Assembly: GCF_000349845.1 (NCBI RefSeq) | Contig: NC_020829.1 | Coordinates: forward strand, 2,487,001 to 2,551,000 | Origin: Pseudomonas sp. ATCC 13867 | GTDB taxonomy: Bacteria > Pseudomonadota > Gammaproteobacteria > Pseudomonadales > Pseudomonadaceae | Direction of reading: 5' to 3' | Length of the DNA: 64,000 nt | The notes under the pieces: generated by a model | Told to the model about the DNA's origin: nothing | Database searches by the model: none | The model's input: only the letters and a program-made list of their open reading frames with translations | Program-made: the position numbers and the translations under genes | Part shown: in pieces, positions 23,759 through 61,917 of the stretch | Layout of the letters: every line of letters starts with the position of its first letter | Numbering within the stretch: the first letter of the stretch is position 1

Positions 23759-23774
23759 TGGCGCGAGAATTGCC
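23759..23774 (+). promoter_or_regulatory. sigma-54 promoter of the regulator-qhpFEG operon
   Basis: TGGCGCGAGAATTGCC fits the -24/-12 consensus TGGCACG-N4-TTGCW with one change; GG and GC are separated by exactly 10 bases. It lies 140 bp before the ATG of the sigma-54 activator gene, so that activator may switch on its own operon. No obvious upstream palindrome was found between it and liuR. The rest of the 273-bp gap to liuR shows no gene. Confidence 0.65.
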
Positions 23775-23913
23775 TCTCGCCTGGAGCTAACCTTTCCTAC
23801 CAGGGGCTTCCCCTTTACTGACGCTGCCGGGGGGTGTACACAGCCCTGACCAGCCTGCGAGTTCCATGCCCCCGACATCTAGAAAAGGGGCACGGAACCT
23901 ACCGGAGCGATGC

Positions 23914-25811
<1,898 letters not shown>

Positions 25812-25812
<1 letters not shown>

Positions 25813-27539
25813 TGTTCTTCACCCGCCTGATCGAGAGCGACGACCCGCAGGCGCTCAAGGCTTCGCTGCGCTGGCTGTACGGTTTCGTACGGCCGCACAA
25901 GATGGCCATTGCCGGCCTGCTCGGGTTGTCGTTCTGTGCCTCGATCCTGGTGCTGGCGCAGCCCTGGTTGACCAAGATGCTGATCGACGACGGCCTGCTG
26001 GCGAAGGACTTTCCGGTGCTGGTGATGGTCGCCAGCGCGATGATAGTCGTCGGCCTGGTCGGGACTGTGTTGTCCGGCCTGAACCGCTACCTGCACACGC
26101 GCCTGTCCGGGCGCATCCTGTTCTCCCTGCGCGACGCGCTGTACCGCCACCTGCAGACGCTCTCGCCGAGCTTCTTCGGCCGCCGCCGCATCGGTGACCT
26201 GATGTCCCGGTTGGACGGCGACGTCGCCGAGATCCAGCGCTTCGCCGTGGACTCGCTGTTCTCAGCCGTCTCCAGCGTGATCGGCCTGGTCGGCGCGCTG
26301 GTGCTGCTGCTCACCCTGTCCTGGAAACTCTCGCTGCTGGTCGCGCTGCTGATCCCGCTGGACGTGCTCTGGCTGCGCTGGATGCGGCGCAAGGTGGAGC
26401 GCGAGGCGCGCGGCCTGCGCGAGCGTTCGGCGGACCTGTCGTCGTTCTTCGTCGAGACGCTGCCGGCGATGAAATTCATCCAGTCCGCCGGCCAGCAATC
26501 CCGCGAATCCGGGCGCCTGGAAGGCCTGGGGCAGGGCTATCTCGGTCAACTGCTGCGCCTGCAACTCACCGAGTTCTTCACCCAGGCCGTGCCCGGCACG
26601 CTGATGTCGCTGTCCCGCGCCTGCGCCTTCCTGGTTGGCGGTTACTGGGTGGTGCAGGGCACCTGGCAGCTGGGGTCGCTGATCGCCTTTTCCACCTATC
26701 TGGGCATGGCCATCGGCCCGGTGCAGAGCCTGCTCGGCCTCTATGTCGCGCTGCAGCGCATGACCGTCAGCCTCGGCCGGGTGATGGAGCTGCGCGGCGA
26801 GGAAGCGACCATCGTTTCGCCCGCCGCGCCACGGCCGATGCCGGCGGTGGGCGAGCTGCGCCTGGAGAACCTGCACTACGCCTGGCCGGGGCGCGCTCAA
26901 GCGGTCCTGCAGGACGTGCAGGCGGTGATTCCGGCGGGCCTCAAGGTCGCCCTGAGCGGCCCGTCCGGGGTCGGCAAGAGCACCCTGATCGACCTGCTGC
27001 AACGCTTCTACGACCCCGATCAGGGGCGCATCCTGCTGGACGGTATCGACCTGCGCGAACTCGACCTGCACGCCCTGCGCCGGCGCGTGGCGGTGGTCAG
27101 TCAGGACATCGTGCTGTTCCGCGGCAGCCTCGCCGACAACCTGGCCTACAGCGCGCCCGAGTCGAGTCGCGAGGCCATCGACAGGGCCGCCCGCGCGGCA
27201 CAGCTGGACAGCCTGATCGCCAGCCTGCCCGAGGGCCTCGACAGCCCGCTGGGCGAGCGCGGCCAGCAGCTTTCCGGCGGGCAGAAACAGCGCATCGCCA
27301 TCGCTCGCGCGCTGCTGCAGGACCCGCTGATCCTGGTGCTCGACGAAGCCACCTCGCAGGTGGACGAAAGCACCGAGCGCGAGGTGATCGCGGCCATCGA
27401 CCGGCTGTTCGCCGGGCGCACGCGGCTGCTGATCAGCCACCGCACCTCGACCCTGGCCGCCGCCGATCTGCACCTGGAGTTGCAGGATGGACAGATGCGT
27501 GTGCGTGAGACGCAGCCGGTGCAGCACCATGAGGCCTGA
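25812..27539 (+). CDS. qhpF: ABC exporter, QhpF-like
   Basis: Half-size ABC exporter of 575 residues: membrane domain with about six helices (residues ~30-330), then an ATPase domain. Walker A is GPSGVGKSTLID, the signature is LSGGQKQRIAIARALL and Walker B is LILVLDEATSQVDE. Alone it could export many things. Its place next to a small subtilisin-like protease and a Trp-modifying-type flavoprotein matches QhpF, thought to export the matured gamma subunit of quinohemoprotein amine dehydrogenase. ATG overlaps the regulator stop; the 3' end overlaps the protease gene by 11 bp. Family certain, qhp role inferred from context. Confidence 0.8.
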
Positions 27540-28200
27540 GTTGCGGGTTGGGGTGGTCGATAGTGGTTTCGCCGATGCTCAATCCGCGAGCGTCAACGCT
27601 GCGCGGCGGTTCTTCCTGACTAACGACGGTCACTCTGACGGCGAGCCTGTGGCGGATGCCCTGGGCCACGGCAGCGTCGTCTGCGAAGCGATTCTTTCCC
27701 ATGCTCCCGAAGCTCGCCTGTGTGTCGCCCAGGTCTTCGATGAACGTGGCGTGACCAGCCCGCTGCAGATCGCCGCCGCGCTGCACTGGCTCGGCGAGCA
27801 GGGCGTGCGGCTGATCAACCTGAGCCTGGGCGTGCGCCAGGACCGGCCGATCCTGCGCGAAGCCGTGACGGAGCTGATCGAGGCCGGCGTACTGGTTTGC
27901 GCGTCCAGCCCGGCGCGGGGCGAGCCGGTGTTCCCGGCGAGCTACGCGGGGGTGATCCGGGTGACCGGCGATGCCCGTTGCGGCGAGGGCGAGTGGTCCT
28001 GGCTGGACAGCCCGCAGGCCGATTTCGGTGCGGCGGTGAAGGTGGGCGGGCGTTCCGGTGCGAGCCTGGGATGCGCGGCTTTCAGCGGGCATCTGGTGGA
28101 CTTGCTGCGCGAACGGCCGGAGTTGTCGAATGTGCAGCTCATCGATGTCATGCGTGAGCGGGCGGCTTTTTGTGGGATCGAGCGGAGGGTGGGGTTGTGA
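27529..28200 (+). CDS. qhpE: small subtilisin-like (S8) protease, QhpE-like
   Basis: Compact S8-family protein of 223 residues without signal peptide or prodomain, so probably cytoplasmic. The triad is readable: Asp11 in VGVVDSGF, His47 in LGHGSVV and Ser179 in GASLGCAAFSG. The usual oxyanion Asn motif (AAGN) reads CASSP here, so that Asn seems absent. The Pro after the catalytic Ser is also missing. This resembles the unusual QhpE protease that removes the leader of the QHNDH gamma subunit. ATG 27529 lies inside the end of the exporter gene; a longer start at 27487 is less likely. Confidence 0.78.
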   Translation: MRPELRVGVVDSGFADAQSASVNAARRFFLTNDGHSDGEPVADALGHGSVVCEAILSHAPEARLCVAQVFDERGVTSPLQIAAALHWLGEQGVRLINLSLGVRQDRPILREAVTELIEAGVLVCASSPARGEPVFPASYAGVIRVTGDARCGEGEWSWLDSPQADFGAAVKVGGRSGASLGCAAFSGHLVDLLRERPELSNVQLIDVMRERAAFCGIERRVGL

Positions 28201-29534
28201 GTGAGGGCTGCCGGGGCATGAGCGAGCTCCCCATCCTGATCCTCGGCGCCGGCCCCGCAGGAGCCGCCGTCGCCCTCGGCCTGCGCCGCCTCGGTCATCC
28301 CGTCATCGTCATCAGCGAGTGGCGCCGCTTCGCCGCCGTGGAAGGTGTGTCCCAGCGCGTGCTGGAAGGTCTGCGCAATTCCGGCCTGAACCACGCGCTG
28401 GAGTGCGCCGCGCCACCCTCGCAACGGCGCGTGCACTGGAACGGCGTGGAAAGCGCGCAGAACATCGAATGCATCCTCGACCGCCCGCGCTTCGATGCGG
28501 GGCTGCGCGAGGACCTGAAAGCGGCAGGTGTCGAGCTGATCGAAGCCCGGGTGCTGGCGGTGGTGGATGAGGGTACCGGCTGGCGTGCGAAGCTCGAGGG
28601 CGGGCGGGAAGTGCAGGGTGCCTTTCTGGTCGAGGCCCGAGGCCGGCAGGCGCCACTGAACCAGAAGGGCAGCAAGGCCCGGCGCGGCCCGGAAACCCTC
28701 AGCCTGCTCAATCGCTGGCAGGGCGCGTCCGGCCCGCTGGCGACGGCGGTGGAAAGCCTGGCCGATGGCTGGGCATGGATGGCGCGGCTGGAAGATGGCC
28801 GCTGCTACTGGCAGTGGACCCTGGATGTCGCCAGCAGCCGGCTGCCGCCACGCGAACAACTGCTGGATTACTGCCGCGAGCGCCGCGCCGCATCGAAGTT
28901 GGTCCGCCAGTTCTTCGGTGAGATCGAAGAGCGCGAGCTGGACCTGCACGCCCGCAGCAGCACGGCGATCCTCTGCCTGGAAGCCTGCGGCGACACCTGG
29001 ATTCGCGTGGGCGATGCGGCGATGGCGGTGGACCCGCTGTCCGGCAACGGTATCTTCCAGTCGCTGTCTTCGGCGTTGCAGGCGCCGCTGGTGATCAACA
29101 CCTTGCTGCGGGCGCCGGAGCGGGCGGAGTTGGCCAAGCGCTTCCATCAGCGGCGGGTCGAGCAGTTGTTCCTGCGTTTCGCCCGCGTCGGACGGGATTT
29201 CTATGCCAGCGAAGAGCGGTGGCTCGACCAGCCGTTCTGGCAGGCCCGCCGCGCCTGGCCTGACAAGCAGCCGAGCCACGCGCCGGCGGACTTCGCCAGC
29301 CTGCGCATCGAGCGCGCCCCCGTGCTCAAGGGCGAGTTCGTCGATGAGGCGGAAGTGGTGGTCAGCGTCGACCAGCCGCTGGGCATCTGGCACCTCGATG
29401 GGCTGGAGCTGGCGCCGTGGCTGCGACGGATTCGCGAGGAGCCCGAGGCCCAGGTGCTGGCCGATCTGCCACCGGAACGCCGCCGGGCGTTCCAGGGCTG
29501 GCTATTGGCGCAGGGCTATCGGCCGCAGTCGTAG
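28197..29534 (+). CDS. qhpG: FAD-dependent monooxygenase, QhpG-like
   Basis: Flavoprotein monooxygenase of about 445 residues. It has the dinucleotide motif LILGAGPAGAAVALGL at the N-terminus and the second FAD motif GDAAMAVDPLSGNGIFQSL near 280, as in tryptophan-halogenase/PHBH-like enzymes. QhpG of this type dihydroxylates a tryptophan in the gamma subunit on the way to the CTQ cofactor. A GTG at 28197 with GGAGGG seven bases upstream and a 4-bp overlap (GTGA) with the protease stop is preferred here. ATG 28218 is the alternative and has a weak ribosome site. Substrate assignment depends on gene context only. Confidence 0.78.
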   Translation: MSEGCRGMSELPILILGAGPAGAAVALGLRRLGHPVIVISEWRRFAAVEGVSQRVLEGLRNSGLNHALECAAPPSQRRVHWNGVESAQNIECILDRPRFDAGLREDLKAAGVELIEARVLAVVDEGTGWRAKLEGGREVQGAFLVEARGRQAPLNQKGSKARRGPETLSLLNRWQGASGPLATAVESLADGWAWMARLEDGRCYWQWTLDVASSRLPPREQLLDYCRERRAASKLVRQFFGEIEERELDLHARSSTAILCLEACGDTWIRVGDAAMAVDPLSGNGIFQSLSSALQAPLVINTLLRAPERAELAKRFHQRRVEQLFLRFARVGRDFYASEERWLDQPFWQARRAWPDKQPSHAPADFASLRIERAPVLKGEFVDEAEVVVSVDQPLGIWHLDGLELAPWLRRIREEPEAQVLADLPPERRRAFQGWLLAQGYRPQS

Positions 29535-42384: not shown

Positions 42385-45300
42385 ATGTCGATTCCAGCGA
42401 AAGTCGTTCCGTCTGCTCAATCCGTCAGTACGTCTCCCACCGTCCAGCTCGATGGCCGGCTGGTCCTCGACCAGCGCAGCAAGGTTGCGCTGCAGGTTCC
42501 CAGGGACGCGGTTGCCGAATACTCCCGTGAAGGTTCAGACCTCGTCGTTCATCTCAAGAATGGCGAGTCCCTGCGTATCGCCAATTTCTATGCGGCCGGG
42601 CAGCCTCCCAGCGAACTGTTCCTCGTCGAAGAGGGGCAACTGGTGGCTGTGCAGTTGCCCGTAGCCGGAGAAGGGACGATGGCGGCGACCTATGCTCCCG
42701 AGCCGGTGGCAGCCGGGTTCGACTCGCTGACCAGCGACTCGTCCGGCCTTGCCGGCATGAGCGCGACCACCACGGCGCTGGCCGCCTTGGCGGTGGTGGG
42801 CGGCGGCGTAGCGCTGGCCAGCGGCGGCGGCGGTGGTGGCGGCGGGGGCGACTCGGCGCCCGCGCCGGACACCAGCGCCCCGCACGCGGCGACCGACCTG
42901 CAGATTTCCACCGATGGCACGCGCCTGTCCGGGCATGCGGAAGCCGGGGCCAGCGTTGGCGTGGACACCAATGGCGACGGCGTGGCGGAGCTGAGCGTGG
43001 TGGCGGACGCCAACGGTCGCTTCGAGGTGGGCCTGAATCCGCCATTGACCGGTGGCCAGGCGATCAGCGTGGTGGTGACCGACCCGGCGGGTAACCGCAG
43101 TCCGGTGGCCAGCGTGCAGGCGCCGGACTTCCCGGATGCGCCGCAGGTCGAGGCCAGCAACGGCCGTGTCATTGCCGGCACCGCGGCCGCGGGCATGACG
43201 GTGGTGCTGACCGACGGCAACGGGCATCCGCTTGGCCAGGCCACGGCCGATGCCGATGGCAAGTGGTCGCTCACGCTGTCCCAGCCGCTCCCCGATGGCA
43301 TGCGGGTCTACGCGGTGGCCAGGGATGCCTTTGGCAATGACAGCCCGGCGAGCAGCCTCACCGTCGATGCCGTGGCGCCGACCCTGTCCGTCATCGGACT
43401 GAGCAATGGTACGCATGTCAGCGGTACCGCCGAAGCCGGTGCGACCGTCACGCTGACCGACGGCAACGGTAACCCCGTTGGCCAGGTCACCGCCGATGGA
43501 AATGGCCGCTGGAGCTACACCCCGGACAGCCCGCTGCCCGATGGCACGGTGATCGCGGCGGTGGCCACGGATACCGTTGGCAACGCCAGCGCGCCGGCCT
43601 GGGTAACGATCGATTCGACGGCGCCGGGCGCGCCGGTGCTCGACCCGAGCAACGGCAGCAGCCTCAGTGGCACCGCCGAGCCGGGCGCTACCGTGACCCT
43701 GACCGATGGCAGCGGCAACCCGATCGGACAGGTCACCGCCGACGGCAGCGGCAACTGGAGCTTCACCCCGTCCACGCCGCTGGCGGATGGAACCGTGGTC
43801 AACGCCACGGCCACCGATCCGGCGGGCAACACCAGCGGGCAGGGCAGCACCACCGTCGATGGCGTGGCGCCGGCCACGCCGACCGTCAACCTGAGCAACG
43901 GCAGCAGCCTCACCGGCGCCGCCGAGCCGGGCAGCACCGTGATCCTCACCGACGGCAATGGCAACCCGATCGCCGAAGTCAGCGCTGATGGCGGCGGCAA
44001 CTGGACCTATACCCCGTCCACGCCGATCGCCAACGGCACCGTGGTCAACGTGGTGGCCCAGGACGCCGCCGGCAACAGCAGCCCGGGCGCCAGCGTCACC
44101 GTGGACTCGCAGGCCCCGGCGGCTCCGGTGGTCAACCCGAGCAACGGCACCACGCTCAGCGGTGCCGCCGAACCGGGCAGCAGCGTGATCCTCACCGACG
44201 GCAACGGCAACCCGATCGGCCAGGTCAGCGCCGATGGCAGCGGCAACTGGAGCTTCACGCCGGGCACGCCGCTGGCCAACGGCACGGTGGTCAACGCCAC
44301 GGCCAGCGACCCGACCGGCAATACCAGCGCTCCGGCCAGCACCACCGTGGACTCGGTGGCGCCGGCCGCGCCGGTGGTCAATCCGAGCAACGGCGCGGAG
44401 ATCAGCGGCACCGCCGAACCGGGCGCCACCGTGACCCTGATCGACGGCAACGGCAACCCCATCGGGCAGGTCACCGCCGATGGCAGCGGCAACTGGAGCT
44501 TCACCCCGTCCACGCCGCTGGCGGATGGAACCGTGGTCAACGCCACGGCTACCGACCCGGCGGGCAACACCGGCGGCCAGGGCAGCACTACCGTGGACGC
44601 CATCGCGCCGGCCACGCCGACCGTCAACCTGAGCAACGGCAGCAGCCTCAGCGGCACCGCCGAACCGGGCAGCAGCGTGACCCTGACCGACGGCAACGGC
44701 AACCCGATCGCCGAAGTCACTGCCGACGGCAGTGGCAACTGGACCTACACCCCGTCCACGCCGATCGCCAACGGCACCGTGGTCAACGTGGTGGCCCAGG
44801 ACGCCGCCGGTAACAGCAGCCCGCCGGCGACGGTGACCGTCGATTCCAGCGCGCCGCCGGCGCCGGTGATCAACCCGAGCAACGGCGTCGTCATCAGCGG
44901 CACCGCCGAGGCCGGTGCCACCGTGACCCTCACCGATGCCGGCGGCAACCCCATAGGGCAGGTCACCGCCGACGGCAGCGGCAACTGGAGCTTCACGCCG
45001 GGCACACCGCTGGCCAATGGCACGGTGATCGTCGCCACGGCCACCGATCCGACCGGCAATACCGGCCCGCAGGCCGCCACCACGGTGGACTCGGTGGCGC
45101 CGGCCGCGCCGGTGGTCAACCCGAGCAACGGCACGAACATCAGCGGCACCGCGGAGGCCGGGGCCAAGGTGATCCTCACCGATGGCAGCGGCAACCCGAT
45201 CGGCGAAACCACCGCCGACGGCAGCGGCAACTGGGCCTTCACGCCGAGCACCCCGTTGGCCAACGGCACGGTGGTCAACGCCTTGGCCCAGGACCCAGCG

Positions 45301-48300
45301 GGCAATACCGGCCCGCAGGGCAGCACTGCCGTGGACGCTGTGGCGCCGAACACGCCAGTGGTCGATCCGAGCAACGGCAACCTGCTCAACGGTACTGCCG
45401 AGCCGGGCAGCACCGTCACCCTGACCGACGGCAACGGCAACCCGATCGGCCAGACCACCGCCGACGGCAGCGGCAACTGGACCTTCACGCCCGGCTCGCA
45501 ACTGCCCAACGGCACTGTGGTCAACGTGACCGCGACCGACGCCTCCGGCAACACCAGCCCGCCCGGCACCACGACGGTAGATTCCTCGCTGCCGTCGACT
45601 CCGCAGGTCGACCCGAGCAACGGCTCGGTGATCAGCGGCACCGCCGACGCCGGTAACACTGTCATCATCACCGACGGCAACGGCAACCCGATCGGCCAGG
45701 TCACCGCCGACGGCAGCGGCAACTGGTCGTTCACCCCGGGCATCCCGCTGCCGGATGGCACCGTGGTCAACGTGGTGGCGCGCAGTCCCGGCAACGCCGA
45801 CAGCTCGCCGGCGATGATCACGGTGGATGGCGTGGCCCCGCCGGCGCCGCTGATCGATCCGAGCAACGGCAGCGACATCAGTGGCACCGCCGAGGCCGGC
45901 GCGACGGTGATCCTCACCGATGGCGGCGGCAACCCGATCGGCCAGACCACCGCCGACGGCAGCGGTAACTGGAGCTTCACGCCGGGCACGCCGCTGGCCA
46001 ACGGCACGGTGATCAATGCGGTGGCCCAGGACCCGGCCGGCAATACCAGTGGGCCGAGCAGCGTCACCGTCGACGCCGTCGCCCCGCCGGCGCCGGTGCT
46101 CGACCCGAGCAATGGCGTGGTCATCAGCGGTACCGTGGAAGCCGGGGCCAAGGTGATCCTCATCGACGGCAGCGGCAACCCGATCGGTGAAACCACCGCC
46201 GACGGTAGCGGCAACTGGACGTTCACCCCGGCTACCCCGCTGGCCAACGGCACCGTGGTCAATGCGGTGGCCCAGGACCCGGCCGGCAACACCAGCGGCA
46301 CGGCCAGCGCCACGGTGGACGCGGTAGCCCCGGCCACCCCGGTGCTCGATCCGAGCAACGGTACAGTGATCAGCGGTACCGCCGAAGCCGGTGCGACGGT
46401 GATACTCACCGACGGCGGCGGCAACCCGATCGGCCAGGCCAGCGCCGACGGCAGCGGCAACTGGAGCTTCATCCCGGCCACGCCGCTGGCCAATGGCACG
46501 CTGGTCAACGCCGTGGCCCAGGACGCCGCCGGCAACACCAGCGGTCCGGTCAGCAGCATGGTGGACGCGGTGGCCCCGGCCACCCCGGTGATCGACCCGA
46601 GCAACGGTGTCGAACTCAGCGGCACCGCCGAACCCGGCGTCCGGCTGATCCTCACCGATGGCAATGGCAACCCGATCGGCCAGACCCTCGTCGACGGCAG
46701 CGGCAACTGGAGCTTCACTCCGAGCACACCGCTGGCCAACGGCACCGTGGTCAACGTCGTGGCCCAGGACCCGGCCGGCAATACCAGCGGCCCGGCCAGC
46801 GCCACGGTGGACACGGTGGCTCCGGCCACGCCGGTGATCAATGCCAGCAACGGCAGCGTGATCACCGGGACCGCCGAGGTCGGCGCCAAGGTGATCCTCA
46901 CCGACGGCAACGGCAACCCGATCGGCGAGACCACCGCCGACGGCAGCGGCAACTGGACCTTCACCCCCGGCACGCCGCTGCCCAACGGTACGCTGATCAA
47001 CGCCGTCGCCGAGGACGCCGCCGACAACGCCAGCGGTCCGGCCAGCACCACGGTGGACTCGGTGGTGCCATCCGCTCCGCTGCTGAGCATCAGCGCCGAC
47101 GGCGCGCTGCTGACCGGCATCGCCGAGCCGAACAGCCAGGTGCGCATCGTGGTCAATGGCGACAGCGCCAACCCGATCACGGTCAACGTCGACGGTAGCG
47201 GCAACTTCAGCCTGCCGTTCGCGCCGCCGCTGATCACCGGCGAGCTGATCGCCGGGGTCGTCGTGGACGCCGCCGGCAACGTCAGCGGACCGGGCACCAT
47301 CAACGGCCCTGACCTGGCGCCGCCAACCATCAGTGTGGCGGAAGCCGCCGATACCTGGGTCAACGCCGCGGAGATCGGCGACGGCATCCAGGTCGAGGTG
47401 ACGGTCCGCCCGACCATGCAGGTCGGCCAGGTGGTCATGCTCAAGTTCGCCGGGCAGGGTGGCTACGAGGCGGAGGTCAGCCATACCCTCAACGCCGGCG
47501 ACATCGCCGCCGGCAACGTGACCCTGACCCTGACGCCTTCCAGCGGACCGTTCCCGGAGGGCGCCTCGACCATTACCGCCGACATCAACGGCGGCACCGC
47601 GTCGACCCCGGTGCCGTTCACCATCGACACCATTCCACCGGCGACCCCGGTGCTGTCCCTGGTCGGCAACATCCTGACCATCTCGGCGGAGCCGGGCACC
47701 GAGCTGACGGTCACCGCCGGCGTCGGCGGGGTGACCGCCACCGCCACGGTGACCGCCGACAACAGCGGGCTGGCGTCGCTGAACCTGCTTACCGACCTGG
47801 ACATCGACTTCAGTTGGGACCAGTTGCTCGACGCCCAGGTCTCGGTGGTCGGCCGCGACCCGGCCGGCAACCCGAGCAACGTGGCGAGCATCGGCGTCGG
47901 CACCAGCATCGAGCAGCCGGTGACCATCGGCAATTTCGGCCTCGACGTCAGCCTCAACCCGCTGAACCCGCGATTCGGTTTCAGCGGTACCAGCGAGCCG
48001 GACTCCAGCGTGGTGATCCGGGTCATCACCCCGGCGCTGAACGTCGAGTTGCTGCCGATCCAGGCGGACTCGTCCGGAAACTTCTCGCTGAACCTGCTGA
48101 GCCCGACCATCCTCACCCAGTTGGGGTTGAACGTCTCCGACATCCTCGATCTCGGCTCGAGGATCTCGTTCAACCTGGTGTCCACCGATTCCAACGGCAG
48201 CGATAGCGCCGCCTACGGGATCACCCTGACCCCCAACGGACTGTCGCTGAACATCGGCCAGATCGATGTCAACGGCACGTCCGGCGACGACGTGCTGTCC

Positions 48301-48774
48301 GGCGCCAACGGCAGTTCGGAGCACATCAACGGCGGCGACGGCAGCGACCTGGTCTTCAACGTGGGCACCGGCGACCATGTGGTGGCCGGCAACGGCAACG
48401 ACACCCTCCAGATCACCGCGACCGATTTCGTCAGCATCGATGGCGGCGCCGGGTTCGATACCCTGGTCCTGGCCAACGGCATCGACCTCGACTACAACGC
48501 CGTCGGCGTCGGCACGCTCAGCAACCTCGAGCGCATCGACCTCGGCAAGGGCGATTCGGGTAGCGTGCTGACCCTGACCGCGGCGGAGGTGGATGCCGTC
48601 ACCGATGCCAACAACACCTTGCAGATCACCGGCGAGAACAACGACACCCTGAACGTGGTGGGCGCGGTGAATACCGGTACCACGCAACTGATCGACGGCA
48701 TTACCTACGATGTCTACACCTTCGGCAGTACCACCCTGCTGGTCGAGGACAATACGGTACAGGTGACCGTCTGA
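42385..48774 (+). CDS. bapA: BapA-type giant adhesin, type I secreted
   Basis: Secreted biofilm adhesin of 2129 residues. Residues 1-~125 are a BapA-prefix-like domain, then a hydrophobic segment (ALAALAVVGGGVALASG) and a poly-Gly run near 150. Residues ~165-1650 are Ig-like bacterial repeats, of which 15 (residues 336-1565) are 82-aa near-copies of the pattern DPSNG..ISGTAEAGA..ILTDGNGNPIGQ..ADGSGNWSFTP. More diverged Ig-like domains follow. The C-terminus from ~1960 has degenerate RTX motifs (GGDGSDLVF, GNGNDTL) and ends in an acidic/hydrophobic type I signal. The three secretion genes follow directly, as in P. aeruginosa PA1874-1877. Confidence 0.9.
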   Translation: MSIPAKVVPSAQSVSTSPTVQLDGRLVLDQRSKVALQVPRDAVAEYSREGSDLVVHLKNGESLRIANFYAAGQPPSELFLVEEGQLVAVQLPVAGEGTMAATYAPEPVAAGFDSLTSDSSGLAGMSATTTALAALAVVGGGVALASGGGGGGGGGDSAPAPDTSAPHAATDLQISTDGTRLSGHAEAGASVGVDTNGDGVAELSVVADANGRFEVGLNPPLTGGQAISVVVTDPAGNRSPVASVQAPDFPDAPQVEASNGRVIAGTAAAGMTVVLTDGNGHPLGQATADADGKWSLTLSQPLPDGMRVYAVARDAFGNDSPASSLTVDAVAPTLSVIGLSNGTHVSGTAEAGATVTLTDGNGNPVGQVTADGNGRWSYTPDSPLPDGTVIAAVATDTVGNASAPAWVTIDSTAPGAPVLDPSNGSSLSGTAEPGATVTLTDGSGNPIGQVTADGSGNWSFTPSTPLADGTVVNATATDPAGNTSGQGSTTVDGVAPATPTVNLSNGSSLTGAAEPGSTVILTDGNGNPIAEVSADGGGNWTYTPSTPIANGTVVNVVAQDAAGNSSPGASVTVDSQAPAAPVVNPSNGTTLSGAAEPGSSVILTDGNGNPIGQVSADGSGNWSFTPGTPLANGTVVNATASDPTGNTSAPASTTVDSVAPAAPVVNPSNGAEISGTAEPGATVTLIDGNGNPIGQVTADGSGNWSFTPSTPLADGTVVNATATDPAGNTGGQGSTTVDAIAPATPTVNLSNGSSLSGTAEPGSSVTLTDGNGNPIAEVTADGSGNWTYTPSTPIANGTVVNVVAQDAAGNSSPPATVTVDSSAPPAPVINPSNGVVISGTAEAGATVTLTDAGGNPIGQVTADGSGNWSFTPGTPLANGTVIVATATDPTGNTGPQAATTVDSVAPAAPVVNPSNGTNISGTAEAGAKVILTDGSGNPIGETTADGSGNWAFTPSTPLANGTVVNALAQDPAGNTGPQGSTAVDAVAPNTPVVDPSNGNLLNGTAEPGSTVTLTDGNGNPIGQTTADGSGNWTFTPGSQLPNGTVVNVTATDASGNTSPPGTTTVDSSLPSTPQVDPSNGSVISGTADAGNTVIITDGNGNPIGQVTADGSGNWSFTPGIPLPDGTVVNVVARSPGNADSSPAMITVDGVAPPAPLIDPSNGSDISGTAEAGATVILTDGGGNPIGQTTADGSGNWSFTPGTPLANGTVINAVAQDPAGNTSGPSSVTVDAVAPPAPVLDPSNGVVISGTVEAGAKVILIDGSGNPIGETTADGSGNWTFTPATPLANGTVVNAVAQDPAGNTSGTASATVDAVAPATPVLDPSNGTVISGTAEAGATVILTDGGGNPIGQASADGSGNWSFIPATPLANGTLVNAVAQDAAGNTSGPVSSMVDAVAPATPVIDPSNGVELSGTAEPGVRLILTDGNGNPIGQTLVDGSGNWSFTPSTPLANGTVVNVVAQDPAGNTSGPASATVDTVAPATPVINASNGSVITGTAEVGAKVILTDGNGNPIGETTADGSGNWTFTPGTPLPNGTLINAVAEDAADNASGPASTTVDSVVPSAPLLSISADGALLTGIAEPNSQVRIVVNGDSANPITVNVDGSGNFSLPFAPPLITGELIAGVVVDAAGNVSGPGTINGPDLAPPTISVAEAADTWVNAAEIGDGIQVEVTVRPTMQVGQVVMLKFAGQGGYEAEVSHTLNAGDIAAGNVTLTLTPSSGPFPEGASTITADINGGTASTPVPFTIDTIPPATPVLSLVGNILTISAEPGTELTVTAGVGGVTATATVTADNSGLASLNLLTDLDIDFSWDQLLDAQVSVVGRDPAGNPSNVASIGVGTSIEQPVTIGNFGLDVSLNPLNPRFGFSGTSEPDSSVVIRVITPALNVELLPIQADSSGNFSLNLLSPTILTQLGLNVSDILDLGSRISFNLVSTDSNGSDSAAYGITLTPNGLSLNIGQIDVNGTSGDDVLSGANGSSEHINGGDGSDLVFNVGTGDHVVAGNGNDTLQITATDFVSIDGGAGFDTLVLANGIDLDYNAVGVGTLSNLERIDLGKGDSGSVLTLTAAEVDAVTDANNTLQITGENNDTLNVVGAVNTGTTQLIDGITYDVYTFGSTTLLVEDNTVQVTV
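43390..47079 (+). repeat. 15 tandem 246-bp repeats inside bapA
   Basis: Fifteen in-frame units of exactly 246 bp (82 codons) without indels. A higher-order period of 738 bp is visible: units 4-6 (43636-44373) resemble units 7-9 (44374-45111) more than their neighbours, with the same alternation of DPSNGSS / NLSNGSS / NPSNG starts. This suggests a past duplication of a three-unit block. Expect length variation and assembly collapse here. Confidence 0.9.
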
Positions 48775-50048
48775 TGGCTGGCAAGCAGTACTTCCCGCCG
48801 GCCCTGTCCCGCGGGAAGAGCATCATCGGCCTGCTGTTGCTTGGCCTGCCGCTGTGTGCGCCGGCCATTCCCCTCGACGAAGCGGTGCGCGCGGGGCTGG
48901 CGATCCATCCGCAGTTGCGCTCCGCGCTGGCGGAGGCGGAGCGCGCCGGCACCGAGGTGGATATCGCCAAGGGCGGCTACTACCCAGCCGTCAGCCTGTC
49001 CGGCGGGCCGCAGGAGTTCGACTTCGGCGAAGTCGTCTACGATGCCACCGTTTCGCAGATGCTGTACGACTGGGGACGGGTGTCGAGCAAGGTGGACAGC
49101 GCCAGCGCCGACCGCCGCCGGCTGACCGAGGCGGCGCTGGTGGCGCGGGACGACGCGGCGCTGGACATCGTCGAGACCTACCTCGACGTGCTGGCCGCCG
49201 AGCGCCGGGTGGACACGGTGCGCCGGCATATCCAGCGCCTGGACGGCATTCGCGAGATGACCCAGGCGCGCGGCGGCGACGGCTATGCCGACCGCAGCGA
49301 GCTGGATCGCGCCAACCTCGAACTGTCGCGGGCCGGGGAACAGCTGTCGCTGGAAAAAGGCAGCCTGCAGGATGCGCGCAACCAGTACGCCCTGCTGGTC
49401 GGCCAGGCCCCCGGCGACCTGGTGGAGCCGGAGCCGGCCTCGCTGCAGCGTTACCTGGCGGGCAGCGACCTGAGTCGGGTGATCCAGGACGCGCCCTTGC
49501 AGCGCAAGGCGGTGGAAGAGGCCAACGCCGCGGAAGCGGGCGTGCGCGAGGCGAAGAGCGCGCTGCTGCCGCAACTGAACCTGGAGGCGACGGCGCTGCG
49601 CCGCGAGGTCGGCGGGCGCCCGGAAAGCGATTCGGTGCTGGCCCTGCGGCTGCGCATGGACACCTTCCAGGGACTTTCCAACTTCCGCCGGCCGACCGCC
49701 GCGCAGCAGCGCCTGGAGTCGGCGCGCTGGAGCGCCGATGCGATGCAGCGCGACATCCGCCGGCAACTGCAGACGCTGTTCGACAACGGCGAGACCCTGC
49801 GTTGGCGCGAGCAGTCGCTGAGCCAGCAGGTCAGCGAGTCGGAGCAGGTGGGCGAGTTGTACCGTGAACAGTTCGAGGTCGGGCGGCGCGACGTGATCGA
49901 CCTGCTCAACGTCCAGCGCGAACGCTTCGAGGCGGAGCGCCAACTGGTCAACCTGCACATCGAACGCAAGCGCATCGAATATCGGGCGGCGGCCCAGGTC
50001 GGGTTGCTGGGGTCGCTGCTGGAGAACCGGTTGAATCATGGAAGCTGA
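48774..50048 (+). CDS. bapB: TolC-family outer-membrane channel for BapA
   Basis: Outer-membrane efflux protein of 424 residues with signal peptide (IIGLLLLGLPLCAPAIP) and the TolC double repeat. First half: LDEAVRAGLAIHPQLRSALAEAERAG and YLDVLAAERRVDTVRRHIQRLD. Second half: VEEANAAEAGVREAKSALLPQLNLEAT and ending FEVGRRDVIDLLNVQRERFEAERQL. Its ATG overlaps the bapA stop by one base, so channel and adhesin are coupled. Equivalent to PA1875. Confidence 0.92.
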   Translation: MAGKQYFPPALSRGKSIIGLLLLGLPLCAPAIPLDEAVRAGLAIHPQLRSALAEAERAGTEVDIAKGGYYPAVSLSGGPQEFDFGEVVYDATVSQMLYDWGRVSSKVDSASADRRRLTEAALVARDDAALDIVETYLDVLAAERRVDTVRRHIQRLDGIREMTQARGGDGYADRSELDRANLELSRAGEQLSLEKGSLQDARNQYALLVGQAPGDLVEPEPASLQRYLAGSDLSRVIQDAPLQRKAVEEANAAEAGVREAKSALLPQLNLEATALRREVGGRPESDSVLALRLRMDTFQGLSNFRRPTAAQQRLESARWSADAMQRDIRRQLQTLFDNGETLRWREQSLSQQVSESEQVGELYREQFEVGRRDVIDLLNVQRERFEAERQLVNLHIERKRIEYRAAAQVGLLGSLLENRLNHGS

Positions 50049-52185
50049 AATGAACCTGTCCCAGGCGCCGGTCGATCCGCTGCGCGAGGGATTGTCGCTG
50101 CTGTGCCGGCAACTGGGCCGGCCGGTCAGTCCGGGCGAGCTGGCCGACGGCATCGCCCTGGAGCAGGGGAGGCTGCCGCTGCACCGGGTGGCTCGTGCCT
50201 TGCGCCGCGCGGAGATCACCGCCCAGGTGGCGGAATATCCGCTGCAGCGGATGGACGCCTACCTGCTGCCGGCACTGTTGTTGCTCAAGGATGGCGGCAC
50301 GCTGGTGCTGGCCGGACTCGACGGCGGCATGGCCGACGTGCTGGTGCCGCAGAGCGACGGCGGCAGCGAACGCCTGGCGCTGGCCGAGCTGGAAGCGCTC
50401 TACGCCGGCACGGCGGTGTTCGCCAAATGCCGCTACCGTCCCGATGGGCGTGTCGGCGACTACGCCAGCGCGGAGCCGGAGCACTGGTTCTTCGGTCCGC
50501 TGCGGCGGCTGCGGCGCTCCTACGCGGAGGTCGCCCTGGCGGCCCTGGTGGCGAACCTGCTGGCGGTCGCCTCGTCGCTGTTCGCCATGCAGGTGTATGA
50601 CCGTGTCGTACCCAACGGCGCCTTCGACACCCTGTGGATCCTCGCCAGCGGCGTGGTCCTGGCGATCTGCCTCGACGGTGTGCTGAGGATCCTGCGCGGG
50701 CACCTGCTCACGGTGCTGGGCAAGCGGCTCGACCTGCAACTCTCGACGCTGCTATTCTCCCGCGTGCTGGGCACCCGCCTGGCGGCCAGGCCGGCGTCGA
50801 TGGGCGCGTTCAGCACCCAGGTGCGCGAGTTCGAGTCGGTGCGCGAGTTCTTCACCTCGTCCAGCGCCGCGCTGATCAGCGACCTGCCGTTCGTGGCGAT
50901 CTTCCTGCTGATCATCGCGCTGATCGGCGGTCCGCTGGCCTGGGTGGTGCTGGCCGCCTGCGTGCTGATGGTGCTGCCGGGGTTGCTGACCCAGCGCCTG
51001 CTGGGTCGCCTGTCGCGGCAGAACCTGCGCGAAGGGGCGATGAAGAACAGTGTCCTGCTCGAAGCCTTCGAACACCTGGAGACGGTAAAGGCCACCCGCG
51101 CCGAAGGTCGCTGCCTGCACCAGTGGGAAACGCTCACCGGCCAGCTTTCCAGCACGGCGTTGAGGACCCAGGCGCTGGTTTCCACGCTCAGCTACGGTTC
51201 GGGCATCATCCAGCAGTTGTGCTATGTCGGCGTGGTGGTCGCCGGGGTCTACCGGATCAGCGACGGCGCCATGACCGTCGGTGCGCTGGTGGCCTGCTCG
51301 ATTCTGTCCTCGCGCGCCATCGCGCCCTTGTCCCAGGCGGCCGGTATCCTCGGCCGCTGGCAGCACACGCGGGTGGCGATGGAAGGGCTGGACCAGTTGA
51401 TGGGAGCGCAGCAGGAGCGCCCCGAGGGCAAGCGTTTCGTGCACCGGGAGCGCCTGCGCGGCAGCTACCGGCTCGAAGGCGTGCGCCTGGCCCACGGCGA
51501 GGGGGCGCCGGTGGTGGACGTGCAGGCGCTGAACCTCCAGGCCGGCGAACGCGTTGCGCTGCTGGGCGGCAATGGCGCCGGCAAGTCGACCCTGTTGCGC
51601 CTGCTCAGCGGTCTGCTGGACCCGCAGGCGGGACGGCTGCTGCTGGACGACGTCAGCCTCGGCCAGATCGACCCCGCCGACCGCCAGCGCGGCATCGGCT
51701 ACCTGCCGCAGGACGTGGCGCTGTTCCACGGCACCCTGCGCGACAACCTCAATCTGGAGAATGCGGCGCTGAGCGACGAGGAACTGCTGGAGGCGCTCGA
51801 TGGCGTCGGCCTGGGCGGTTTCGTGCGCGCCCATCCGCTGGGCCTGGACATGCCGATCCAGGGCAACGCCAGCCTGTCCGGCGGCCAGCGCCAGGCGGTG
51901 GGCCTGACGCGCGTGCTGCTGCAGGACCCGCCGATCCTGCTGCTCGACGAGCCGACCGCGGCCTTCGACCAGACCAGCGAAAACCGCGTCATCGAATACC
52001 TGCAGCAGTGGCTGGGCAGCCGCACCCTGGTGTTGACCACGCACAAGAAAAGCATGCTGGCCCTGGTGGACCGCGCGGTGGTCCTGCGCAACGGCCAGGT
52101 GATCATGGACGGACCGCTGCACCAGGTGGTGCAGGGCAACCAGGTGCAGGCGCCGCTGCACACCGAAGGAGGTGTCCGTGGCTGA
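50038..52185 (+). CDS. bapC: type I secretion ABC transporter for BapA
   Basis: Inner-membrane exporter of 715 residues of the LapB/HlyB group. Residues 1-~140 form a C39-like domain that lacks the peptidase Cys, as is normal for adhesin and RTX exporters. About six helices follow (~160-450) with FAMQVYDRVVPNGAFDTLW. The ATPase domain has Walker A GGNGAGKSTLLRLLSG, signature LSGGQRQAVGLTRVLL and Walker B ILLLDEPTAAFD. ATG 50038 overlaps bapB by 11 bp; ATG 50050 with GGAAG upstream is an alternative. Equivalent to PA1876. Confidence 0.92.
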   Translation: MEAEMNLSQAPVDPLREGLSLLCRQLGRPVSPGELADGIALEQGRLPLHRVARALRRAEITAQVAEYPLQRMDAYLLPALLLLKDGGTLVLAGLDGGMADVLVPQSDGGSERLALAELEALYAGTAVFAKCRYRPDGRVGDYASAEPEHWFFGPLRRLRRSYAEVALAALVANLLAVASSLFAMQVYDRVVPNGAFDTLWILASGVVLAICLDGVLRILRGHLLTVLGKRLDLQLSTLLFSRVLGTRLAARPASMGAFSTQVREFESVREFFTSSSAALISDLPFVAIFLLIIALIGGPLAWVVLAACVLMVLPGLLTQRLLGRLSRQNLREGAMKNSVLLEAFEHLETVKATRAEGRCLHQWETLTGQLSSTALRTQALVSTLSYGSGIIQQLCYVGVVVAGVYRISDGAMTVGALVACSILSSRAIAPLSQAAGILGRWQHTRVAMEGLDQLMGAQQERPEGKRFVHRERLRGSYRLEGVRLAHGEGAPVVDVQALNLQAGERVALLGGNGAGKSTLLRLLSGLLDPQAGRLLLDDVSLGQIDPADRQRGIGYLPQDVALFHGTLRDNLNLENAALSDEELLEALDGVGLGGFVRAHPLGLDMPIQGNASLSGGQRQAVGLTRVLLQDPPILLLDEPTAAFDQTSENRVIEYLQQWLGSRTLVLTTHKKSMLALVDRAVVLRNGQVIMDGPLHQVVQGNQVQAPLHTEGGVRG

Positions 52186-53362
52186 GCCGGGTTCCGATCA
52201 ATTGCGCCGGCAACTGGGCGACCCGCTGCTGGCGGCGACCCACCCGGTCTACCGACCGCTGCTCTGGACCCTGCTCGGGGTGGTCCTGCTGTCCATCCTC
52301 TGGGCGGCCTGGGCGGAGCTGGACGAGGTGACGCGCGGTGACGGGCGCGTGGTGCCCTACAGCCGCATCCAGAAGATCCAGAGCCTGGAGGGCGGCATCC
52401 TCGACCGCCTGCTGGTGAAGGAGGGCGACCGCGTCGAGGTGGGGCAGCCCCTGGTACGGCTGGACGACACCCATTTCCTCACCAATTACCAGGAGTCGGC
52501 CAACCAGGCCGCCGTCCTGCGCGCGGCCATCGCGCGGCTGGATGCCGAGGTGCTGGGCAAGGAACGCATCGAGTTCCCCGAGGGAATCGACGCCGCTGGC
52601 CCGTTGGCCCGCTCCGAGCGCGAGCTCTTCAACTCCCGGCGGGCCAAGCTGGTGGAAGGCAGCCAGGCCGTGCAGAAGCAGGTCCGCCTGGCGCAGAGCC
52701 AGCTCGACCTGGTCCGGCCGCTGGTGGAGAAGCGCGCCGTCAGCCAGATGGAGGCGCTGAAGCTCAGCCAGGACATCGCCACGCTCAACGGCAAGCTCAC
52801 CGAACTGAAGAACACCTACTTCCAGGATGCCTACACCGAGCGCGCGGAGAAGAAGGCCCAGCTCACCCAGCTGGAGCCCATCGTGCAGCAGCGCCGGGAC
52901 CAGTTGCGCCGCACGGAGATCCTGTCGCCGGTACGCGGGCGGGTGAACACCGTACTGATCAACACGCGCGGCGGGGTGATCCAGCCGGGAGAGGCGATCA
53001 TGGAGGTGATCCCGGTGGAGGAGCAGTTGCTGGTGGAGGCGAAGATCAAGCCGCGCGACGTGGCCTTCCTGGTGCCCGGCATGCCCGCCAAGGTGAAGAT
53101 CACCGCCTACGACTACACCCTCTACGGCGACCTCAAGGGTACCCTGGAGCAGATCAGCGCCGACACCATCGAGGAGGACACCGTGCACGGCAAGGAGTCC
53201 TACTACCAGGTGCTGATCAGGACCGACGGCAGCCAGTTGAAGCGGGGGAGCGAGGTGCTGCCGATCATCCCCGGCATGGTGGCGGAAGTGGACATCCTCA
53301 GCGGCAAGCGCAGCGTGCTCAACTATCTGCTGCGTCCGCTGATCAAGGCGCGGCTGTATTGA
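52178..53362 (+). CDS. bapD: HlyD-family membrane fusion protein for BapA
   Basis: Periplasmic adaptor of 394 residues linking BapC and BapB. One transmembrane helix near the N-terminus (LLWTLLGVVLLSILWAAWAELD), then a lipoyl half-motif (QSLEGGILDRLLVKEGDRVEVGQPL), a long coiled coil (~120-240) and the second half (ILSPVRGRVNTVLINTRGGVIQPGEAIMEVIP). The start is a GTG: 52178 has AAGGAGG five bases upstream, better than GTG 52172 inside it. Equivalent to PA1877. It closes the operon; no terminator is obvious. Confidence 0.92.
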   Translation: MAEPGSDQLRRQLGDPLLAATHPVYRPLLWTLLGVVLLSILWAAWAELDEVTRGDGRVVPYSRIQKIQSLEGGILDRLLVKEGDRVEVGQPLVRLDDTHFLTNYQESANQAAVLRAAIARLDAEVLGKERIEFPEGIDAAGPLARSERELFNSRRAKLVEGSQAVQKQVRLAQSQLDLVRPLVEKRAVSQMEALKLSQDIATLNGKLTELKNTYFQDAYTERAEKKAQLTQLEPIVQQRRDQLRRTEILSPVRGRVNTVLINTRGGVIQPGEAIMEVIPVEEQLLVEAKIKPRDVAFLVPGMPAKVKITAYDYTLYGDLKGTLEQISADTIEEDTVHGKESYYQVLIRTDGSQLKRGSEVLPIIPGMVAEVDILSGKRSVLNYLLRPLIKARLY

Positions 53363-60252: not shown

Positions 60253-61746
60253 TTACAGACGAATCAGCACCGATTTCAGCTCGGTGTAGTGCTCGATGGC
60301 GGCGGCGCCCATCTCGCGGCCCACGCCCGACATCTTGAAGCCGCCGAAGGGCAGCGCCGGGTCCAGCGCGCTGTGGCAGTTGACCCACACCGAGCCGGAC
60401 TTGATGCGCGGCACCATGCGGTGCACCGCCGACAGGTCGTTGGACCAGATGCTCGCGCCCAGGCCGTAGGGGCTGTCGTTGGCCAGGCGCAGGGCGTCGT
60501 CGATGTCGTCGAAGGGCATGGCGACCAGCACCGGGCCGAAGATTTCCTCCTGCACCAGCGGGTTCTTCTGGTCGACGTCGACGATCACCGTGGGTTTGAC
60601 GAAGTAGCCGGGGCCGAACTGTTCGCCGCCGCAGGCGATGGTGGCGCCCTTGTCGCGGCCCAGTTCGATGTAGTCGAACACGCGCTTCTGCTGCTTGGCG
60701 GAGATCAGCGGGCCCATGTCGATGCTCGGGTCCAGGCCGTTGCCCAGCTTCATGCCGTTGGCGATGCCGGCGATGTCGGCGATCACGTTGTCGAAGTGCT
60801 TGCGCTGCACGTACAGGCGCGAGCCGGCGCAGCAGACCTGGCCCTGGTTGAAGAAGATCGCTTGCGCCGCGCCAGCGGCGGCGGTGGCGAGGTCGGCGTC
60901 GGCCATGACGATGGTCGGCGACTTACCGCCCAGCTCCAGGGTCACGCGGGTCATATTGTCCATCGCCGCCTTGCCGATTTCCTTGCCCACCGGGGTCGAG
61001 CCGGTGAAGGTCAGCTTGTCCACCAGCGGGTGGTGGGAGAGGGCGGCGCCGGCGGTGATGCCGGTGCCGGTGACGACGTTGAACACGCCTGCCGGGTAGC
61101 CCGCCTCCAGGACAAGCTCGGCGAGTTTCAGCGCGGACAGCGGGGTTTCGTCGGCGGGCTTGAGCACCACGCTGCACCCGGTGGCCAGCGCCGGGCCGAG
61201 TTTCCAGCAGGCCAGCAGCAGCGGGAAGTTCCAGGCGACGATGGCGCCAACCACGCCGACGGCTTCGCGGCGGATGTAGCCGTGGAAGTCGCCGTCGGGC
61301 ATCAGCGGCATCGACACATCGACGGTGGTGCCTTCGATCTTGGTGGCGTAGCCGGCCATGTAGCGCAGGAAGTCGATGGCCAACTGCACATCCATCACGC
61401 GGGCGACGGCGGCGCTCTTGCCGTTGTTCAGGCACTCCAGCTCGGCCAGCAGGTCGGCGTCGCGCTCCATCAGCTCGGCGAGCTTCCACAGCAGATTCTG
61501 CCGCTCGCGCGGACGCATGCGGCTCCAGGGCGAATCGTCGAAGGCCTGGCGCGCGGCGCGCACGGCGCGATCGACGTCGGCGACGGTGGCGGCCGGGACC
61601 TGGCACAGCACCTCGCCGGTGGCCGGGTTGCGCAGGTCCATCAGGGCGCTGTCGCTGGCGGAGGTCCAGTCGGCACCGATCAGCATCTTCGGTGCGCGCT
61701 GCAGGAAGGCGCGGGATTCGGGCTTGATGGGCAGGGAAGCGAGCAT
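60253..61746 (-). CDS. aldehyde dehydrogenase, phenylacetaldehyde dehydrogenase-like
   Basis: NAD-dependent aldehyde dehydrogenase of 497 residues. VAWNFPLLLACWKLGPALATG near 165, catalytic Glu in LELGGKSP near 265, nucleophile Cys in FFNQGQVCCAGSRLYV near 300. The end segment WVNCHSALDPALPFGGFKMSGVGREMG resembles FeaB/StyD-type phenylacetaldehyde dehydrogenases more than betaine or succinate-semialdehyde types. The frame runs to 61908, but ATG 61746 with AAGAGG fits the family. A sigma-54 promoter lies 65 bp upstream. Substrate not proven. Confidence 0.85.
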   Translation of the reverse strand: MLASLPIKPESRAFLQRAPKMLIGADWTSASDSALMDLRNPATGEVLCQVPAATVADVDRAVRAARQAFDDSPWSRMRPRERQNLLWKLAELMERDADLLAELECLNNGKSAAVARVMDVQLAIDFLRYMAGYATKIEGTTVDVSMPLMPDGDFHGYIRREAVGVVGAIVAWNFPLLLACWKLGPALATGCSVVLKPADETPLSALKLAELVLEAGYPAGVFNVVTGTGITAGAALSHHPLVDKLTFTGSTPVGKEIGKAAMDNMTRVTLELGGKSPTIVMADADLATAAAGAAQAIFFNQGQVCCAGSRLYVQRKHFDNVIADIAGIANGMKLGNGLDPSIDMGPLISAKQQKRVFDYIELGRDKGATIACGGEQFGPGYFVKPTVIVDVDQKNPLVQEEIFGPVLVAMPFDDIDDALRLANDSPYGLGASIWSNDLSAVHRMVPRIKSGSVWVNCHSALDPALPFGGFKMSGVGREMGAAAIEHYTELKSVLIRL

Positions 61747-61810
61747 TGCGATTGCCTCTTGTCGGTCTGTTCGTTCTGCTCGGATCGGGAGCAGGTTGGG
61801 AGCGGACATC

Positions 61811-61825
61811 GCAACGGCTGTGCCA
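61811..61825 (-). promoter_or_regulatory. sigma-54 promoter of the aldehyde dehydrogenase gene
   Basis: On the minus strand TGGCACAGCCGTTGC is a full match to TGGCAC-N5-TTGC with GG and GC 10 bases apart. It lies 65 bp before the ATG. An A/T-rich stretch (61831-61880) follows upstream, where IHF could bend the DNA. Confidence 0.8.
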
Positions 61826-61900
61826 ATGCTTAAATCGTTGATTAAGTATTTGAAATTAAAATGATTTATTGATTTTTTCGATTGGCGGGGAGAGGGCCGT

Positions 61901-61917
61901 TGTCGCACATTGCGACA
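61901..61917. promoter_or_regulatory. upstream activator site candidate (17-bp palindrome)
   Basis: TGTCGCA-CAT-TGCGACA is a perfect 7-3-7 inverted repeat about 85 bp upstream of the sigma-54 promoter. Position and form fit an enhancer site for a sigma-54 activator. The activator is unknown; the AcoR-like protein of this window is one candidate. Confidence 0.65.

Follow-up and report, generated by a model that had tools for sequence, protein, structure and literature searches.

A qhpFEG maturation operon of Pseudomonas sp. ATCC 13867 and its probable structural counterpart, qhpADCB, on the same chromosome

We have analyzed a 64,000-nucleotide stretch of DNA from Pseudomonas sp. ATCC 13867 (bases 2487001-2551000 of a single contig of 5,696,307 bases; hereafter the window), in which four overlapping genes on the + strand, at window positions 23914-29534, code for a sigma-54 activator (REG54), an ATP-binding cassette (ABC) exporter, a subtilase and a flavoprotein. 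This group is very probably one half, that for maturation, of an ordinary quinohemoprotein amine dehydrogenase (QHNDH) system, called qhp and, in Pseudomonas, pea, with the structural half located ~37 kb away. At the level of sequence, both halves are open, the genome contains one QhpD and one QhpG above the model cut-offs, and qhpD and qhpG are co-inherited.

The maturation operon and the genes of its dehydrogenase

The subtilase and the flavoprotein were each identified by a specific NCBIfam model: QhpE by NF049966 (E 8.2e-90, 300 bits against a cut-off of 165) and QhpG by NF049967 (E 1.6e-173, 577.5 bits against a cut-off of 240). QhpG also matched, at 540 bits, the peptidyl-tryptophan dihydroxylase of P. 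putida whose structure has been solved (7ctq), and it was the only match above the cut-off in the whole genome. The models for the flavoprotein maturases LodB and GoxB, with cut-offs of 400 bits, were matched weakly by QhpG (110 and 104 bits, far below the 577 bits for its own model); because of these weak matches we regard QhpG as a relative of the LodB/GoxB flavoproteins. The exporter has the domains ABC_membrane (140 bits) and ABC_tran (111 bits), and qhpE is adjacent to such a gene in the cassettes read in relatives. In each of the 19 REG54-headed cassettes read, the exporter gene comes after REG54 and before qhpE; in L073 and L077, the two clusters read that are without REG54, it comes after qhpB. 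From this placement and linkage, we infer that the exporter is QhpF.

A genome-wide search for the radical S-adenosylmethionine (SAM) enzyme QhpD gave one match above the cut-off, to TIGR03906 (777 bits against 453), at 2555393-2556790 and hence outside the window. Genome-wide profile searches covered qhpD and qhpG; qhpA, qhpB and qhpC were located beside qhpD. Together they make up a complete qhpA-D-C-B set on the same strand as the cassette, which begins ~2.7 kb beyond the window end, in the adjoining stretch that we designate L005; 38,889 bp separate the QhpG and QhpD matches. The subunits of the solved P. putida enzyme 1jmx were matched by QhpA (793 bits) and QhpC (158 bits). In the alignment of QhpC to the mature chain 1jmx_G, residues C7, E16, C27, D33, C37, C41, W43 and D49, which we take to be those of the cross-links and of the cysteine tryptophylquinone (CTQ) cofactor, are all kept. 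Residue 29 of QhpC aligns with residue 1 of the mature chain, and therefore a 28-residue leader is present, as is described for QhpC in the available text of PMC7876137. All eight genes (REG54 and qhpA through qhpG) are open, and each of the six for which a specific model exists scored above its cut-off.

These results bear on an earlier note, made from the sequence of the window, which had described an overlapping exporter-protease-flavoprotein operon of the QhpF-QhpE-QhpG type without its dehydrogenase, and had proposed either a split locus in this genome or a cassette that serves another modified peptide. The operon is as the note described it (window 25812-29534, headed by REG54), and profile searches place the subtilase and flavoprotein with QhpE and QhpG, not with unrelated families. 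The dehydrogenase is indeed missing from the window, but it is not missing from the genome, and it is the split locus, with both halves on the same chromosome and strand, that we find.

By analogy with the characterized family, QhpD would form three thioether links in QhpC, QhpG would dihydroxylate a QhpC tryptophan, QhpE would cut off the 28-residue leader, and QhpF would transport the matured QhpC to the periplasm, where assembly of QhpC with QhpA and QhpB would yield an enzyme that oxidizes primary amines. The resulting aldehyde would be oxidized by the product of aldh2, an aldehyde dehydrogenase gene near qhpA.

Arrangement of the qhp genes in the family

We examined two samples: 56 relatives, with the source genome included, and 398 genomes of the family. 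The same 28 genomes in the first sample have qhpD and qhpG above the cut-offs. In the second, at E <= 1e-100, the two genes occur in an identical set of 103 genomes (107 qhpD loci and 104 qhpG loci), and no genome has qhpG without qhpD. These counts speak to the possibility that the cassette was recruited for another small peptide, with QHNDH matured by other genes. Its physical separation from qhpADCB would suit such a role, as would three further loci with weak QhpD-model scores (74, 25.7 and 21.4 bits); yet these radical-SAM matches are far under the 453-bit cut-off, the QhpC leader and cross-link residues are intact, and qhpG was never seen without qhpD in the 398 genomes. We consider recruitment for another peptide highly improbable, and we rejected this second proposal of the earlier note on the genome searches and the co-occurrence, none of the searches having been aimed at small Cys/Trp-rich peptides. 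Because the genome has one QhpG above the cut-off, the cassette most likely serves QHNDH; the adjoining qhpADCB, the intact QhpC and the single QhpG imply that it has its expected substrate, which the window edge alone had hidden.

The distance between the halves was taken for those qhpG loci that share a contig with a qhpD. In the genus of the window (g1), 2 of 17 such loci are less than 12 kb from qhpD (that of G005 and the divergent one of the two G015 copies), 14 are at 14-39 kb and one is at 201 kb, with 8 more loci on other contigs. In g11, one of 9 is within 12 kb and the rest range from 47 kb to 1.19 Mb (9 more on other contigs). By comparison, the distance is below 12 kb for 45 of 47 loci in g35 (22 and 77 kb for the remaining two; 3 more on other contigs), 4 of 4 in g5, 4 of 4 in g9 (one more on another contig), and the single loci of g36 and g39. 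Thus, it is common for the halves to be far apart in the genus of the window and in one other, and the remaining genera mostly keep them together. The halves can be tens of kb apart, and once 1.19 Mb, while qhpD and qhpG keep occurring in the same genomes.

Gene order was read by tblastn in 40 loci, which come from 20 of the 27 qhp-positive genomes that the first sample contains besides the source genome. In this comparison with relatives, which the earlier note had suggested, G005, G028 and G032 have a contiguous locus, REG54-F-E-G, aldh2 in reverse, and A-D-C-B. The window locus has the same order and strands as these three, with other genes between qhpG and aldh2; aldh2 and qhpA are separated by a major facilitator superfamily (MFS) transporter gene and a CcmF-like gene. 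G016 has a gap of 14.2 kb, in which only some of the window's gap genes were found. The simplest reading of these sequences is that a contiguous ancestor would have received the insertion later.

Two genomes, G013 (L084/L085) and G021 (L081/L082), have two qhpADCB sets and one qhpG each at E <= 1e-100, so that both dehydrogenases may be matured by a single cassette. The second copy in G015 (L073) is a divergent contiguous cluster, A-D-C-B-F-E-CcmF-like-G, with proteins 33-58% identical.

The linked regulator and its candidate sites

REG54 contains an AAA+ sigma-54 domain (Sigma54_activat, 220 bits), a Fis-type helix-turn-helix (HTH_8) and a weak PAS match. Orthologues (E <= 1e-180) were found in 101 of the 398 genomes, 99 of them qhp-positive, and in 95 of these 99 no more than 6 kb separates the gene from qhpG (of the other four, three lie on different contigs in draft assemblies and one is 10.5 kb away). 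The presence of a sigma-54 activator instead of QhpR, to which the earlier note had drawn attention, thus holds both here and in most of the family's qhp-positive genomes. The two REG54 relatives in qhp-negative genomes, with no qhpD or qhpG at E <= 1e-100 (G246:C12:102978-104864 and G251:C2:115292-117175), each have an in-frame TAA, and are probably remnants of lost qhp loci. A regulator named PeaR was reportedly described by Arias et al. in 2008 for P. putida U, and may be the same activator as REG54.

For promoters, we scanned 250 bp upstream of start codons for the -24/-12 consensus, with score weights of our own; hits with less than 55% identity or with less than 250 bp upstream were left out. 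Position 23759, at which the stretch studied here begins, is also where a likely -24/-12 element ahead of REG54-qhpFEG begins, and the site ahead of aldh2 had the top score among the 93 sites that scored at least 12 in 79 kb. In the set of promoters read, in which close relatives are not independent, scores of at least 13 were observed for 18 of 19 aldh2 promoters, 15 of 21 qhpA promoters and 14 of 19 REG54 promoters (the window's included), compared with 4 of 80 for six control genes (2/17, 2/17, 0/6, 0/15, 0/21 and 0/4). Likely -24/-12 promoters therefore precede REG54-qhpFEG, aldh2 and qhpA.

We also derived a palindrome pattern, TGTCKCANNNTGMGACA, from dyads in the aldh2 and qhpA promoters of the window's locus and in G016. 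In the 79 kb there are three sites with at most two mismatches, all three having at most one, and they precede aldh2, the CcmF-like gene and qhpA; ten Markov sequences gave means of 0.8 and 0.0 at these two levels. In the whole genome (5.70 Mb), sites with at most one mismatch are just these three, all in the qhp locus. Among the loci read, the pattern is present with at most two mismatches in 19 of 19 aldh2 promoters and in 12 of the 15 regions ahead of the CcmF-like gene, and with at most one mismatch in 15 of 21 qhpA promoters; in three further cases (G016, G028 and G032) such a site is in the region that qhpA shares with the divergent aldh2. The qhpA palindrome and the end of the CcmF-like gene overlap, but coding constraint alone is insufficient to account for the palindrome, since G001 has it intact and is without that gene. 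At G000:C1:2566058-2566074, a palindrome with two mismatches is located ~110 bases upstream of the minus-strand open reading frame (ORF) L005:17018-17950, and may be there by chance.

From these elements we infer that the sigma-54 activator would turn on the separated, distant aldh2 and qhpA units by way of their -24/-12 promoters and the TGTCKCANNNTGMGACA site, an arrangement that would keep the halves co-expressed despite the distance. The literature that we searched, with most subscription journals outside its scope, gave no report tying QHNDH to sigma-54 or RpoN.

An AraC-type QhpR is known from Paracoccus, and such a protein, encoded elsewhere in this genome, could control qhp, with the sigma-54 activator having some other target. 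Two loci do exceed the 250-bit cut-off of the QhpR model, one with 304 bits at 874048 and one with 259 bits at 4441833. Both are remote from qhp, and an equally strong match (299.7 bits) was found in G029, a genome without qhpD or qhpG above the cut-offs, so that the model catches relatives as well. REG54, by contrast, is adjacent to qhp and tracks it closely, and the -24/-12 elements suit sigma-54. Control by an unlinked QhpR is in our estimation improbable, and we did not retain the AraC-type protein as the qhp regulator.

The conservation of promoters and palindrome also bears on whether the cassette is a dead remnant in a strain that makes no QHNDH. The halves have moved apart, and regulator remnants with an in-frame TAA do occur in the qhp-negative G246 and G251. 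Against this, all eight genes are open, with the six modelled ones above their cut-offs, the A-G proteins are 69-100% identical in the split loci read in the genus (second qhpADCB copies of G013 and G021 set aside), and promoters and palindrome have been conserved. We give the dead-remnant interpretation very little credence, and prefer that of an ordinary QHNDH system in two halves.

Several observations weigh against that interpretation, including its proposed regulation. A REG54 match at E <= 1e-180 is absent from four of the 103 qhp-positive genomes, and the two QhpR-model matches above the cut-off are to be counted here as well. A site scoring at least 13 is absent from one of 19 aldh2, 6 of 21 qhpA and 5 of 19 REG54 promoters, in a set of relatives that are not independent. 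The genome has 15 more sites with two mismatches to TGTCKCANNNTGMGACA, and the pattern taken backward, as a control, gave 17 sites in total. Upstream of the window's own REG54-qhpFEG there is no palindrome (one of 19 in relatives, with two mismatches), so that an action of REG54 on the operon that it heads is conjectural; the CcmF-like unit has the palindrome, but no consistent -24/-12 element. The palindrome is a strong suggestion and not proof, and the local hits are partly circular because the pattern was read off the same promoters. Finally, QhpF matched no qhp-specific model, its best NCBIfam match being an MsbA-related model (407 bits against a cut-off of 780), and our interpretation as a whole is drawn from sequence, with expression and enzyme activity predicted.

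Table 1. Positions of the genes and candidate control elements (window coordinates, except where L005 is given)
Feature	Position	Strand	Basis
Likely sigma-54 (-24/-12) promoter of REG54-qhpFEG, TGGCGCGAGAATTGCC	23759..23774	+	consensus scan
REG54, sigma-54-dependent activator, regulator linked to qhp in the family	23914..25812	+	Pfam Sigma54_activat, HTH_8, weak PAS
qhpF, putative ABC exporter (permease + ATPase)	25812..27539	+	domains and position
qhpE, subtilisin-like leader protease	27529..28200	+	NF049966
qhpG, flavin-dependent peptidyl-tryptophan dihydroxylase	28197..29534	+	NF049967, 7ctq
aldh2, phenylacetaldehyde-dehydrogenase-like aldehyde dehydrogenase	60253..61746	-	Aldedh, 583 bits
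Likely sigma-54 (-24/-12) promoter of aldh2, TGGCACAGCCGTTGCG	61810..61825	-	consensus scan
17-bp palindrome TGTCGCACATTGCGACA, candidate activator site (upstream activating sequence)	61901..61917	.	0 mismatches to TGTCKCANNNTGMGACA
CcmF-like haem-lyase gene, just upstream of qhpA	L005:3233-5515 (~230 bases beyond window end)	+	PF01578
qhpA	L005:5614-7290 (longest ORF)	+	718 bits, above cut-off
qhpD	L005:7313-8797	+	777 bits, above cut-off
qhpC	L005:8799-9122	+	171 bits, above cut-off
qhpB	inside L005:9002-10288	+	497 bits, above cut-off

Companion genes and comparison with known systems

The CcmF-like protein has the cytochrome c assembly domain PF01578 (45 bits) and, invariant across the 15 sequences compared, a WHWDP segment that is presumably the WWD-type motif of CcmF-type haem lyases. 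An AlphaFold model built with these 15 sequences, of moderate confidence (pLDDT 71), matched CcmF 6zmq (E 1.9e-12) and nothing else at E <= 0.001, so that domain, motif and, in the predicted model, fold are those of CcmF. We call it CcmF-like only, because its score with the CcmF/NrfE subfamily model TIGR00353 (87 bits) is under the cut-off of 569. Elsewhere, the genome codes for another CcmF-family protein (L114:2804-4912), with 30% identity over 305 columns.

The companion gene was matched at E <= 1e-100 in 24 of the 398 family genomes, all qhp-positive, and each of its 25 loci is within 4 kb of a qhpD. Two of these loci (the second copy of G015, where the gene is between qhpE and qhpG, and, by coordinates, one in G180) belong to contiguous clusters whose QhpG is divergent. 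A protein 44-45% identical is encoded in two Thauera records: in L113, 22 kb also contain qhpADCB and an aldh2-like gene, qhpD being 6.6 kb from the CcmF-like gene, and in L112, a contig of 10 kb, no qhp gene was matched. Since 79 of the 103 qhp-positive genomes are without a match at this threshold, the companion is accessory at most. A plausible, if tentative, proposal is that the qhp regulon of this Pseudomonas group includes a dedicated CcmF-type haem lyase that would attach or proofread haem c on QhpA. If so, the CcmF-like protein would be a further, undescribed QHNDH maturation factor, coordinated across the split locus through the sigma-54 activator; we found no report linking an amine dehydrogenase with a CcmF haem lyase in the literature searched, which had the limits given above.

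The start codon of aldh2 is our choice within the longest ORF, 60253-61908. Its product scored 691 bits with the model for the phenylacetaldehyde dehydrogenase StyD, under the cut-off of 850. The gene is near qhpA in 18 of the 23 qhpADCB loci read, and its position and family are consistent with oxidation of the aldehyde produced by amine oxidation.

The other genes between the halves include those for a glutathione transferase, an aldehyde dehydrogenase, a LysR regulator, ApbE, a PepSY/flavodoxin reductase, a xanthine/uracil-type permease, a metallo-beta-lactamase fold protein, an OmpA-like protein, an amidase, an AraC/DJ-1 regulator and an amino-acid permease. Also in the gap, at window 42385-53362, are a BapA-like adhesin of 2129 residues with immunoglobulin-like repeats and then a type I secretion outer-membrane efflux protein, ABC protein and HlyD. 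The operon itself is flanked by unrelated families, an acyl-CoA dehydrogenase and a MerR regulator to the left and the glutathione transferase to the right. Downstream of qhpB (L005:10874-15698) are genes for a TackOD1-GGDEF protein, a glycosyltransferase and an outer-membrane efflux-type protein, a trio also present in L055, L057, L063 and L071 (its third gene being beyond the L055 stretch). The sole Rfam match over the gathering score in the window is a TwoAYGGAY RNA at 1191-1313 on the minus strand.

A possible orphan cassette can thus be settled as a normal QHNDH maturation set, and two leads emerge: possible control of amine oxidation in this family by sigma-54, acting through a defined palindrome, and the companion CcmF-like gene, seen, among the family genomes sampled, only in qhp-positive ones. 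Compared with the qhpABCDEFGR operon of Paracoccus denitrificans and Pseudomonas putida, qhpA through qhpG are all present here, six of them above the cut-offs, with the QhpC leader and modified residues conserved. The differences are that the genes form two blocks ~37 kb apart instead of one cluster, that the linked regulator is a sigma-54 activator and not an AraC-type QhpR, and that a CcmF-like gene precedes qhpA. According to the available text of PMC7876137, the qhp genes vary in arrangement, order and strand, and that of PMC5023235 gives a qhpRADCBFE cluster in Methyloversatilis. A single cluster and a linked QhpR are usual for a qhp system, but do not define it. In the 2-phenylethylamine (pea) pathway of Pseudomonas, as far as the available portions of PMC3644233 describe it, peaA, peaC and peaD code for the QHNDH subunits and peaE for phenylacetaldehyde dehydrogenase, corresponding to qhpA, qhpC, qhpB and aldh2 here, and in two Pseudomonas strains these genes are not gathered in one operon. 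The system is a known one whose arrangement is known to vary, and its apparent oddity was produced by the window edge.

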